From a virus, in IMG/VR virus record IMGVR_UViG_3300025101_000107, positions 1 through 30,936 of that record: a DNA stretch of 30,936 bases. One strand, given 5' to 3'. The notes under the pieces are model-generated. The model was not told the origin of the DNA. It saw only the letters and a list, made by a program, of their open reading frames with translations, and did no database searches. The first letter of the stretch is position 1, and every line of letters begins with the position of its first letter. Shown here in pieces: positions 787 through 15,227 of this stretch. Both the position numbers and the translations under genes were made by a program.

Positions 787-870
787 CTTTTAAATTTTTT
801 AAGGTATCAAACAAATAATTATAATAATTAATAAATTAAATAATTAAAATATTTTAAAAAGGATATAAAT

Positions 871-1005
871 ATGAGTGATGATACAAAAAGAATTATAAAT
901 ATTGATGATGTTGTAGATGATTACTACAATAATGCACCGATAGTAGATACAAATGAGTATAGTGAGGATGTGTTAGGAGAGGAGGACTATGATGACAGAG
1001 CATGA
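871..1005 (+). CDS. Acidic micro-protein (44 aa)
   Basis: ATG 871 follows AAGGAT and is the first start downstream of the promoter at 758-786. The product is strongly acidic (INIDDVVDDYYN, SEDVLGEEDYDD) with no Cys and one Met, no membrane segment, and no recognisable domain. Its 3' end overlaps the next gene by 17 bases and supplies that gene's ribosome binding site (GGAGAGGAGG). Small acidic early phage proteins are sometimes host-protein inhibitors or DNA mimics, but nothing here shows that. Confidence 0.5.
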   Translation: MSDDTKRIINIDDVVDDYYNNAPIVDTNEYSEDVLGEEDYDDRA

Positions 1006-11877: not shown

Positions 11878-12291
11878 TTAGCTAGAAACTTTGATTTTTT
11901 TTGGCTTTTGTTCCTCTGGTATGTCTTTTTCCAGTTGAATAACCAAGACACCATCAATCATCTGAGCTTTCTTTACTTCTACGTATTCAGCTAGAGCAAA
12001 TTTTTTATAGAACTCTCGTTCAGAAATTCCTTTATGAATAAATTCTATATCATCCTCTCTCTTTCCGTAGTCTGCAGAGATAGTTAATGTATTATCTTTT
12101 ACTTCAATATCAATGTCAGAACGTTTAAACCCTGCCATTGCCATTTCAATAAAATATGATTCACCTTTTTTAAGAATATTGTAAGGTGGATAGTTTGTAT
12201 TAGGTATTGATGCTCTTTGTAATGTATTAAAGATGTCATCAAACCCGACTGAGAACGGACTGAATTGTCCAAATGCTTTTATGTTTGTCAT
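11878..12291 (-). CDS. Small heat-shock protein, Hsp20/alpha-crystallin family
   Basis: A 137-residue chaperone of IbpA type. The alpha-crystallin domain runs from about residue 35 (PPYNILKKGESYFIEMAMAG) to 125, with the typical DIDIEVKDNTLTISA, the loop RGISEREF-like HKGISEREFYKKFAL, and DGVLVIQLEKDIPEE. It would hold unfolding proteins in the infected cytoplasm. Small Hsp20 genes are well known in marine cyanophages. It is the last gene of the - strand arm and has its own perfect promoter and a thermometer-like leader, separate from the overlapping genes upstream. ATG 12291 is set by AAGGAG at 12297-12302 on the - strand. Confidence 0.93.
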   Translation of the reverse strand: MTNIKAFGQFSPFSVGFDDIFNTLQRASIPNTNYPPYNILKKGESYFIEMAMAGFKRSDIDIEVKDNTLTISADYGKREDDIEFIHKGISEREFYKKFALAEYVEVKKAQMIDGVLVIQLEKDIPEEQKPKKIKVSS

Positions 12292-12343
12292 ATTAACTCC
12301 TTATATAAAGCAAGTTTATGAGTGCCGAACCTTTCGCACACTC
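12292..12343 (-). promoter_or_regulatory. Candidate ROSE-like RNA thermometer in the hsp20 5' leader
   Basis: The expected leader of about 55 bases forms two hairpins. The 3' hairpin (12295-12316) pairs AACUUGCUU with AAGGAGUU around a UAUAU loop: A-U, A-U, C-G, U-A, U-G, a bulged G, then C-G, U-A, U-A. It buries the Shine-Dalgarno AAGGAG. The anti-SD strand contains UUGCU, which matches the U(U/C)GCU signature of ROSE elements that control bacterial small heat-shock genes, including the bulged G. The 5' hairpin (12320-12343) pairs GAGUG with CACUC and CGAA with UUCG. The gene controlled is itself an Hsp20. The fold is drawn by hand; melting is inferred. Confidence 0.7.
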
Positions 12344-12352
12344 TTCCCTACT

Positions 12353-12381
12353 ATTATAGGGTCGATATTCACATTTGTCAA
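12353..12381 (-). promoter_or_regulatory. Perfect consensus sigma70 promoter for hsp20
   Basis: On the - strand TTGACA (12376-12381), 17 bases, TATAAT (12353-12358), 12/12. The -35 starts one base after the stop codon of the cyclase gene (12383-12385). The start of transcription should be near 12346, giving the two-hairpin leader. There is no sigma32-like heat-shock promoter pattern, so any heat control would act through the leader. Confidence 0.85.
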
Positions 12382-12382
12382 G

Positions 12383-14116
12383 TCATATTGTATAAATTTT
12401 TATAGGTTTTTCTTTACCTTTAACACGGATAGAATCTAACTTTTGATACATAGTTCCATGATAATATTTAATTGTCTCTTCACCTATAACTAAATCTTTA
12501 CCTACTTCCTTACAGCTAGATTCTAAACGAGCTGCTAAGTTTACCGCATCACCTATAGCTGTATAATCAAAACGAGTATCACTTCCCATATTACCTATGA
12601 CAGCTTCACCCGTATTTACACCAATACCTATATCAATATCTAAATCTGATTCTTTCATTTTAGTTTTTATTTCTAACGCTGCTAATATAGCTTGATGTTC
12701 GTGTCTATCTAAATCCATAGGTGCATTAAATATAGCCATCATCGCATCACCAATATATTTATCTACCATTCCACCATACTTTTTAACTGCATCAGCTTGG
12801 ATAGTTAAAGCTTTGTTCATAATCTCTGTGACTTCTTCAGGCTCTAACTTCTCTGACAAACTTGTAAAGCCTCTAACATCTGTAAATAAAAATGTACATC
12901 GTCTTCTTTCACCACCTAACTTTAAAAGCTCTGGATTGTTTTGTAATCGTTTGACTTGAGCTGGGTCAAGATAATGCTCAAATTGTTTCTTAATTTGTTG
13001 ACGAAGTTTAAACTGTGTCCTAAAGTTTAGATAGAACTGTTGAGTTGCGATAAGTGTCATACTTATCAAACTCCAAGTTACATCAACTAAATAACCTAGA
13101 GATACAAAATAATAACCTAAACCAGCAACTGATGACATTACCATACCAGCTAAAAGTAATCCCCACGTTATACCAAAGTAACTTATAATAAAGGCGATTA
13201 GTAATCCGGAAATGCATAATATAAATAGTTCAACAAATAATCTGTAGTCAGGTATGGAAGGAGAGTCAATCAAAATACTTTCTGCAAGTGCAGCCTGTAT
13301 CTTATGAGGCTCTAACAATCCGTTTGGAGTTGCTAACTGTGGCATAACTCCTTTCGCAGTTACACCTATGAATACAAACTTACCTGCAACATCCATTTCT
13401 TTTAAGGTAGTTTGTGGTGTATCAACCCAACTAATCCATTTTCTCCCAAGACTATCTGTGCTTACCGGAGGTAATCCTTTGACTCTTATCATCTCAATAC
13501 CATTCTCGTTAGTCTTAATTTGATAAGTGTCACCACCTACTAATGACTTTAGTACTTGAGTACCAAAGGCAGCAACCCAACCATCTGGAGTTTGCTGTAG
13601 TAAAGGTAATCGTCTGACAAGATTATCTACATCAACTCTTGCCGACACTACTCCTTGAGCTGCTGATTGTTTTAGTATAGGTACATTTTCTAAAAACCCT
13701 GTAGCTTTTGGTAAGTCTACATCTGGTCCAAGGATAACAGTACCATGTGTTTCAGGATAAATATTATTCTCAAACTCTGGCATTGCTAGTACACTAGGAA
13801 CATAACTTAGCATCTGTGAAAAGATTTCATCTCCACCAAACCTATCTGGCTGTGGAAATAGAATAACCCAACCCACTCCTAATGCACCTTCGTTAATTAG
13901 TTGTCGTTGTATCTCTGCTAAGTCTTGTCTAGGAAAAGGATAGCCACCTCTTTCTTGTACGTCTTCTTCAGTAATATTTAAAATTGTAAAATGTCCGGAA
14001 GGCTCTGGAGTTTCTACAAACGTATCAAAAGTTTTAAGTCTAAGTATCTCTAAAGGTACAGAGTTAAAAAGTAAAGGTACAATTAAAAGTCCAAGTAAAG
14101 GTAAAGACCACTTCAT
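12383..14116 (-). CDS. CHASE2-domain class III adenylate cyclase
   Basis: A 577-residue membrane receptor-cyclase predicted to make cAMP from ATP. An N-terminal hydrophobic segment (residues 5-20) leads into a periplasmic CHASE2 domain (about 25-285) with VEITEED-like NITEEDVQERGGYPFPR and FVFIGVTAKG. Three membrane segments follow (about 293-312, 316-338, 343-358), then a coiled linker and the cyclase domain (about 400-577). Catalytic residues are complete: metal ligands D413 (FTDVRGF) and D457 (YIGDAMM), adenine-selecting K453 and T519 (DYTAIGD), and N526/R530 (VNLAAR). ATG 14116 follows AAGGAG overlapping the end of the FecR gene. In bacteria CHASE2 cyclases can lie beside FecR-domain genes, as here. 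It is full length with no broken motif. Confidence 0.93.
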   Translation of the reverse strand: MKWSLPLLGLLIVPLLFNSVPLEILRLKTFDTFVETPEPSGHFTILNITEEDVQERGGYPFPRQDLAEIQRQLINEGALGVGWVILFPQPDRFGGDEIFSQMLSYVPSVLAMPEFENNIYPETHGTVILGPDVDLPKATGFLENVPILKQSAAQGVVSARVDVDNLVRRLPLLQQTPDGWVAAFGTQVLKSLVGGDTYQIKTNENGIEMIRVKGLPPVSTDSLGRKWISWVDTPQTTLKEMDVAGKFVFIGVTAKGVMPQLATPNGLLEPHKIQAALAESILIDSPSIPDYRLFVELFILCISGLLIAFIISYFGITWGLLLAGMVMSSVAGLGYYFVSLGYLVDVTWSLISMTLIATQQFYLNFRTQFKLRQQIKKQFEHYLDPAQVKRLQNNPELLKLGGERRRCTFLFTDVRGFTSLSEKLEPEEVTEIMNKALTIQADAVKKYGGMVDKYIGDAMMAIFNAPMDLDRHEHQAILAALEIKTKMKESDLDIDIGIGVNTGEAVIGNMGSDTRFDYTAIGDAVNLAARLESSCKEVGKDLVIGEETIKYYHGTMYQKLDSIRVKGKEKPIKIYTI

Positions 14117-14117
14117 A

Positions 14118-15227
14118 TTAATCTCCTTGAGTTATCGTTATGGTAGAGCTTCCTCCACCATTCACCACAATCTGAGTGCTCTTACCATTCTGTATTAGTA
14201 TGACAGTATATGAGCCACTCTTATCTAAATCTAACCTAACAGTATCTTCTAACGTTTTGTAAAAAGTTATGAGATTATCTGTTGTAAAAGTATTGATTTG
14301 AGTTTCTTGGTCAAACCCAAATGCTGTACCTTTTAAATCTATATCTGTTTTTAATAGTGTATTAGTTGTATCTAATTCGTTTATATCTTCAATTATATTT
14401 AGTAGGTCTTCTAAAAAATTTACATCTAAATAATTTATATCTAGCTCTGTAAATTCTAATTCATCTCCTGCTAAATAGTCTTGTTCTAAATCGTCAAAAT
14501 CAAGATAATCAATATCAAGAACATTACTTGTACTACTATCTCCGTCTTGTCCTGTGGCAACTTTATTCTCCCTTGGTTTGCTTACAATCAACATGTTATC
14601 AATTAACTCAAGTGTTAAGTCAAGGATAACTGGCTTAGTGGGTTCAGCTTCAAATATAGAAACTGTAGTAGCTTGGTAAGGTTTATTAAGTACAACCTCT
14701 CCCATAGCTGTTGCAACGACAATCTCTCCACTAGGTAGACCGTCATCGTCAGGTAATAATATGACTAAAGAACGACCTAATTCGTCAACAGTCACAGTAA
14801 AATCAGTACCACGAATACCTATCGTAGCACTTGGAGTTTTTATAAATATGTTTTGTTTATCTATAGTTGCGAGTTTTCCTGTGATAAATCTTGCAGTACC
14901 ACTCGCAAACTGTAGAGCCATCTTAGATTTAGATGGGTCAGGGTCATATATAAACTCATCAATAATGAGTTCAGAATGTTCAGTCAATCTTACTTGACTA
15001 TCATCCAGAAACGTAATGCCCACTCTCCCATTGGAAGTTTGGACATTATCGTAACTGTTTATATCGAAGGCTAGTGCAGCTTTGTAAGTATCGTCTCTTA
15101 CAACTCTGCCAAAACCTTCAAGCTCTGTAATGCTGCCTATCTCAGCAACCGACTGCTGTTCCGCCATCGTTTTGGATGACACAAACAGTACCGTTAGAAC
15201 CAGTACTAAGTATTTTAAGCCAGTCAT
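14118..15227 (-). CDS. Periplasmic FecR-domain protein
   Basis: 369 residues with a signal peptide (hydrophobic 6-17, probable cleavage after TMA, residue 22). The FecR domain covers about 35-175: VGITFLDDSQVRLTEHSELIIDEF, then the signature TPSATIGIRGTDF (131-143). A second part is highly acidic and Leu/Asp-repetitive (about 225-290, for example LDIDYLDFDD, LDINYLDVNFLED). The end is beta-rich and Gly/Ser-rich (VVNGGGSSTITITQGD). There is no cytoplasmic anti-sigma helix, so this is a periplasmic structural or ligand-binding FecR, not a classical FecI regulator. It sits between a curlin gene and a CHASE2 cyclase; acting as the cyclase's periplasmic partner is inference. Its first 86 bases overlap the curlin gene. 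Confidence 0.88.
   Translation of the reverse strand: MTGLKYLVLVLTVLFVSSKTMAEQQSVAEIGSITELEGFGRVVRDDTYKAALAFDINSYDNVQTSNGRVGITFLDDSQVRLTEHSELIIDEFIYDPDPSKSKMALQFASGTARFITGKLATIDKQNIFIKTPSATIGIRGTDFTVTVDELGRSLVILLPDDDGLPSGEIVVATAMGEVVLNKPYQATTVSIFEAEPTKPVILDLTLELIDNMLIVSKPRENKVATGQDGDSSTSNVLDIDYLDFDDLEQDYLAGDELEFTELDINYLDVNFLEDLLNIIEDINELDTTNTLLKTDIDLKGTAFGFDQETQINTFTTDNLITFYKTLEDTVRLDLDKSGSYTVILIQNGKSTQIVVNGGGSSTITITQGD

Follow-up and report, generated by a model that had tools for sequence, protein, structure and literature searches.

The window analysed here, a marine phage record of 30,936 nt taken as a whole, has the pelagiphages HTVC103P, HTVC104P and HTVC115P as its nearest relatives (primase 47-49% identity). 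On its minus strand lies a gene for a small heat-shock protein that is 48% identical to the Hsp20 of HTVC115P, preceded by a short leader and a σ70-type promoter (Table 1). The position of the leader directly 5' of a small heat-shock gene is the one expected of a ROSE element. Upstream of hsp20 on the same strand are genes for a CHASE2-domain adenylate/guanylate cyclase and a FecR-domain protein (12383-14116 and 14118-15227); no annotated phages other than HTVC008M and those of the Melnitz group have a full-length relative of the cyclase.

Table 1. Features of the hsp20 locus in the window, and ROSE-type elements at other phage genes
Feature	Position	Strand	Basis or loci
hsp20 / alpha-crystallin small heat-shock protein, 137 aa	11878..12291	(-)	PF00011 E 2e-18; PHROG 432 E 9.4e-41
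hsp20 5' leader, ROSE-type element, ~55 nt	12292..12346	(-)	R1 match 12297-12345; ROSE_3 16.6 bits 12286-12345
Hairpin II AACUUGCUUUAUAUAAGGAGU: anti-SD UUGCU strand, bulged G, SD AAGGAG	12296..12316	(-)	Predicted fold; helix 2 pairing in relatives
Shine-Dalgarno AAGGAG, occluded within hairpin II	12297..12302	(-)	Sequence and predicted fold
Hairpin I GAGUGUGCGAAAGGUUCGGCACUC, with its own bulged G	12320..12343	(-)	MFE fold; equivalent helix covaries in relatives
σ70-type promoter TTGACA-17-TATAAT, 12/12 consensus, drives hsp20	12353..12381	(-)	Sequence; boxes kept in relatives
ROSE-type elements directly upstream of phage dnaK	L078 1934-1983; G002, G003, G007, G010, G012, G013, G017, G026		Loci L449-L451, L453, L454, L456-L458
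ROSE-type elements upstream of 71-91 aa phasin-like genes	L459, L455, L452 (contig 160197-160248), L320 1179-1233		Four contigs

The promoter matches the σ70 consensus at all 12 positions, as the initial annotation had stated, with TTGACA at 12381-12376 and TATAAT at 12358-12353 separated by a 17-nt spacer, and it is the top-scoring of seven promoter-like sites in 1.2 kb. The window thus carries a σ70 consensus instead of a σ32 heat-shock promoter of the CTTGAAA...CCCCATNT type. Such a vegetative promoter makes it possible for hsp20 mRNA to be produced without the host heat-shock sigma factor. Among 18 distinct IMG/VR relatives from the same clade both hexamers are kept (as TATACT in one lineage), while the promoter spacer and the DNA further upstream vary; in the same relatives both hairpins are nearly invariant and the Shine-Dalgarno (SD) sequence is kept. 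The start of the leader is inferred to lie near 12346, 7 nt past the -10 box. The sequence AGUAGGG that directly follows this box (12346-12352, minus strand) is peculiar to the window's closest relatives.

The minimum free energy (MFE) fold of 12289-12350 contains both hairpins that the initial annotation had described. Hairpin I forms as GAGUGU(G)CGAA...UUCGGCACUC and hairpin II as ACUUG/CUU...AAGGAGU; AAGGAG is paired, and one G bulges out of ACUU-G-CUU. The leader therefore meets the description of a ROSE element in that its SD is sequestered in a 3' hairpin by a U(U/C)GCU anti-SD strand (ACUUGCUU / AAGGAGU) and in that a further hairpin, which covaries in relatives, lies on the 5' side. 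It does not meet the description of a fourU thermometer, which requires four consecutive U against the SD, as the pairing U run of its anti-SD strand CUUGCUUU is broken by the bulged G and a C.

Fold energy by itself is weak evidence for this structure and barely goes beyond chance (z = -1.80, with 13 of 200 shuffled sequences folding equally well). For a transcript starting at 12346, hairpin II dominates and the SD is predicted to be open with a probability of 0.0001 at 20 °C, 0.0046 at 37 °C (a roughly 46-fold increase) and 0.0134 at 42 °C. With other choices of transcript, competitors appear. A start at 12352 adds an AGUAGG strand that is predicted to compete for the anti-SD, as it could base-pair with CUUGCU and release the SD; when 30-60 nt of coding sequence are included the anti-SD is predicted to prefer AUAAAAGC inside the gene. 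With a start at 12351, predicted SD closure is no better than in shuffled sequences. Leaders of other genes in the window have a comparable predicted temperature response, and for most other phage leaders predicted SD opening is low even at 40 °C (0.001-0.03). Thermometer prediction from energy alone was judged not to be diagnostic and the energy model to be ambiguous for the window leader. Because this energetic picture is fragile, we rest the thermometer claim on homology and covariation rather than on energies.

Rfam models gave partial support, so that the absence of a model hit, which the initial annotation had listed as a refuting outcome, was neither fully borne out nor fully avoided. 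At gathering scores there was no Rfam hit in the window or in 19 relatives, and neither RF00435 (ROSE) nor RF01832 (ROSE_2) matched at E<=10 within 12200-12500. ROSE_3 (RF02523) was the only thermometer family to align, and although its score of 16.6 bits (E 0.41 over 4227 families) falls short of the gathering score of 43, the alignment is full length and in register with the SD and AUG. On the leaders of relatives, including ones of textbook appearance, ROSE_3 was sub-threshold for many (maximum 34.1 bits among the phage loci scanned), and no Rfam ROSE hit at E<=10 was found in the SAR11 hsp20 loci scanned. These misses indicate that the curated ROSE_3 model is narrow. The Rfam family freshwater-2 (RF02980) scored 30.2 bits over a freshwater phage leader and was rejected, its stems lying off the ROSE hairpins and its match falling mainly on the purine-rich SD tail.

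We also built a covariance model, R1, from the hsp20 leaders of 17 other phages, none of them belonging to the window's clade. Its top match in 62 kb of strand was the window leader, with 18.0 bits (E 1.2e-4) against 9.9 bits for the next match. At E<=0.02 R1 picked up 66 of 80 phage loci, and nearly all of these matches abut the start of hsp20; at E<=0.1 it had matches in 53 of 60 whole phage records. The window leader is very likely a homologue of the ROSE family, without being a member by the Rfam cut-off.

Comparison across phages indicates that the pairing itself has been maintained. In an alignment of 93 distinct phage leaders fitted to the model, standard pairs fill 96.9% of pair cells versus 75.7% after shuffling, and 247 cells are changed on both sides versus 60. 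Covariation in this alignment is 0.549, compared with 0.141 for shuffled alignments (none of 500 reached the observed value) and 0.04-0.09 for slid structures; a MAFFT seed alignment, the members of which were chosen by a hairpin parser, gave 0.473 versus 0.152 when shuffled. Double changes occur at all eight pairs of the helix equivalent to hairpin I, and helix 2 is 99.1% paired across the 93 leaders. The SD is bordered by a C-G, G-C, U.G or A-U pair, and at the position preceding the bulged G, U.G alternates with C-G. Both bulged Gs are invariant (99/99 aligned leaders), as is expected of a ROSE element, and together with the pairs they indicate that the U-G(bulge)-C against G-G motif of hairpin II is repeated in hairpin I. 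Within the window's clade the single stem change is an A to G in hairpin I (A-U to G.U), the other changes being confined to loops and linkers. Two alignments were set aside in favour of an in-register subset (A3): a MAFFT alignment of all leaders (A1), in which the hairpins were misregistered, and a second (A2) with a misplaced SD end. As judged from these substitution patterns, the base pairing is under selection. A lack of conserved pairing in related phages was one of the outcomes that the initial annotation had named as refuting it, and it did not materialise; the ROSE arrangement that it proposed is supported by homology and covariation together.

The element is not peculiar to the window. 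Among 331 untruncated phage hsp20 loci, 328 are preceded by the anti-SD/SD arrangement (by a permissive pattern, a few of whose matches are due to chance), and 211 of 217 distinct leaders parse into both hairpins, a generous figure since the parser seeks pairing. The GAUGCC...GGGUC hairpin I and the CU(U/C)GCU motif, found in most phage leaders, are shared with ROSE_3. Sixteen of 17 reference phages show the element (HTVC115P, HTVC103P, HTVC008M, Mosig, Melnitz-3, C48C1, AG-345-P14 and nine cyanophages), the exception being Vibrio phage VpB-34, whose hsp20 leader had no R1 match. Nearly every phage hsp20 examined, whether from pelagiphages, T4-like cyanophages or freshwater phages, carries it. 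The initial annotation was thus right to place such a leader on a phage hsp20, but its scope was too narrow, the element being common across phage hsp20 genes and no singleton. Two further observations were made at individual loci. In P-HM2 (GU075905.1, 133301) the gene start annotated for hsp20 falls 5' of the ROSE element and is probably wrong. In S-CREM1 an annotated pair of glutamine (glnA) riboswitches, close to the Rfam cut-off, lies on the opposite strand about 600 nt upstream of hsp20 (797-895, minus strand, of locus L091).

Related elements also precede other genes. R1 matched directly upstream of dnaK in all nine HSP70-bearing IMG/VR contigs (24 records checked), one such leader reading ...UAUAGAUGCCUAACGGGUCUAUAACAUCUAUCUUGCUUUAACAAAGGAGAAAAUU-AUG, and in two dnaK contigs hsp20 follows dnaK without an element of its own. 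This dnaK-borne element occurs in some large freshwater viruses. In two contigs (L311 and L320) a small phasin-like gene is followed by hsp20 in the same orientation; of two small genes tested, one had a Phasin_2 match, which was sub-threshold. A Gp23 capsid gene was confirmed in three of the four small-gene contigs and, among the nine dnaK contigs, in a single one, G012; some of the shorter dnaK contigs could have been misclassified as viral by IMG/VR. That large aquatic phages possess dnaK and hsp20 genes is already known, from a report that does not mention thermometers (PMC12619734).

Scanning bacterial genomes with an alignment of phage Hsp20 sequences returned mainly small heat-shock genes of SAR11 (Pelagibacteraceae), many from single-cell genomes, and SAR11 bacteria are the likely hosts. 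R1 matched the bacterial hsp20 leaders at 25 of 26 loci (E<0.05, 12.6-42.6 bits), Pseudoroseicyclus being without a match. By R1 the SAR11 leaders (most of loci L341-L418, about 22-43 bits in those scanned), which read GUUGGUCGCCUAAUGGGGCUAAC...AACUUGCUUAACAAAGGAGG, carry the same element on the same gene as the window. Unlike the window's σ70 promoter, the SAR11 hsp20 promoter is σ32-like (CTTGAAA...CCCATAT). Such a promoter stands ahead of 57 of 73 distinct SAR11 leaders (0.9 expected), none of which has perfect σ70 boxes, versus only 4 of 209 phage leaders (1.25 expected). This contrast supports, at the promoter level, the suggested independence of the phage gene from host σ32. Among 211 phage leaders, 38 have σ70-like boxes (0.2 expected) and 93 a TAAATA box of the T4-late type (8.2 expected), the remainder being unclassified. 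The simplest reading of these sequences is that thermometer and gene may have moved together while the promoter was swapped for phage types, the direction of transfer remaining undetermined without a tree. That the two travelled together is suggested by the class A affinity of cyanophage sHSPs (PMC3827213).

We consider it likely that the hsp20 leader is a phage-borne, short, two-hairpin translational thermometer of the ROSE type behind a vegetative σ70 promoter, its thermoregulation being inferred. In the cold, hairpin II would pair the SD AAGGAG against the UUGCU strand and so block it; the U.G wobble and the bulged G would weaken this hairpin, such that warming could open it and let the ribosome load. 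Hairpin I would remain folded and might aid folding or mRNA stability. From the comparison with known elements, hairpin II probably does block the SD in the cold and open on warming. The promoter, the anatomy and homology of the leader, its conserved pairing and the promoter difference from SAR11 rest on the sequences themselves. In the absence of expression data, however, temperature-dependent SD opening, heat-induced Hsp20 synthesis and a benefit during infection are all inferences. On an evolutionary scale, the ROSE-type element would have been retained on phage chaperone genes and the heat-shock promoter replaced.

That the structure is merely a chance hairpin in AT-rich phage DNA is scarcely credible. 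The modest z score and the absence of an Rfam gathering hit would be compatible with it, but it is already refuted by the comparative data, namely the independent R1 match, the constancy of the hairpins against a varying promoter spacer, and a covariation that no shuffle attained. A leader that works mainly at the DNA or protein level, for instance as a promoter-proximal operator or a RegA-like translational repressor site, with the hairpins secondary, would account for the high sequence conservation directly after the -10 box in the window's clade, and hsp20 does adjoin regA in several T4-like phages. Across clades, however, the sequence of hairpin I changes freely and its pairing is kept, which points to RNA structure, and the element is also found, behind different promoters, in bacteria and ahead of dnaK; we regard a binding element as very improbable.

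A ROSE homologue might also act as a constant translational brake or a timing element, keeping the yield of Hsp20 low and regulated, or as an mRNA-stabilising 5' hairpin, without meaningful switching at host temperatures. The low SD opening predicted for most other phage leaders even at 40 °C fits such a role, as do vegetative or late promoters, which imply expression in every infection, and hairpin I has been suggested to stabilise ibpA mRNA in Pseudomonas (PMC3669281). Yet the features that weaken hairpin II (U.G or C-G before an invariant bulged G) have been kept without drift to perfect pairing, the element recurs specifically on the heat-shock genes dnaK and hsp20, and loss of the bulged G abolishes regulation in Pseudomonas (PMC3669281). 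A fixed brake is thus unlikely, though it is the least implausible of these alternatives.

If the thermometer reading is correct, it might extend beyond single genes. We lean, with some reserve, towards a thermometer-run phage chaperone regulon, in which ROSE elements on nearly all aquatic phage hsp20 genes, on dnaK (9/9 contigs) and on small phasin-like genes, behind σ70 or T4-late promoters, would set output by RNA melting alone, without a host heat-shock sigma factor. ROSE elements here are phage-borne, widespread and in some phages placed on dnaK, an indication that viruses infecting abundant aquatic bacteria match their chaperone supply to the temperature of the water without depending on heat-shock transcription by the host. 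The more than 200 distinct leaders form a large natural alignment from which the sequence rules of ROSE elements could be worked out, and the system allows the exchange of promoters around a retained RNA sensor to be tested directly.

The initial annotation knew of no ROSE thermometer in a phage, and we likewise found no published report of one in the open-access literature. The cyanophage sHSP literature that we examined does not mention a thermometer, a survey of structured RNAs in Pelagibacter does not mention the hsp20 leader, and no published name for the SAR11 hsp20 element was found. RNA thermometers of other types are known from phages, however: λ cIII is one (PMC4166951), and blyA of the SPβ prophage is reported to have a fourU thermometer (PMC10586365). 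Both resemble the window in placing a thermometer in a phage mRNA leader, and both belong to other classes and control other genes. The λ cIII element differs from the window's in that it closes on warming, and the blyA element in that it sets four U against the SD.

The closest known counterparts are the ibpA leaders of Pseudomonas, which have been shown to be thermometers of about 60 nt with two hairpins and a U(U/C)GCU strand, in which hairpin II melts, hairpin I does not, and loss of the bulged G abolishes induction (PMC3669281). These leaders lie on a bacterial chromosome, are transcribed by σ32 and have a measured temperature response, whereas the window has a phage gene, a σ70 promoter and no such measurement. 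In their length, their two hairpins, the U(U/C)GCU anti-SD strand, the bulged G and the SD within hairpin II, as well as in an unpaired AUG and a small heat-shock gene downstream, the Pseudomonas leaders and the window leader are alike.
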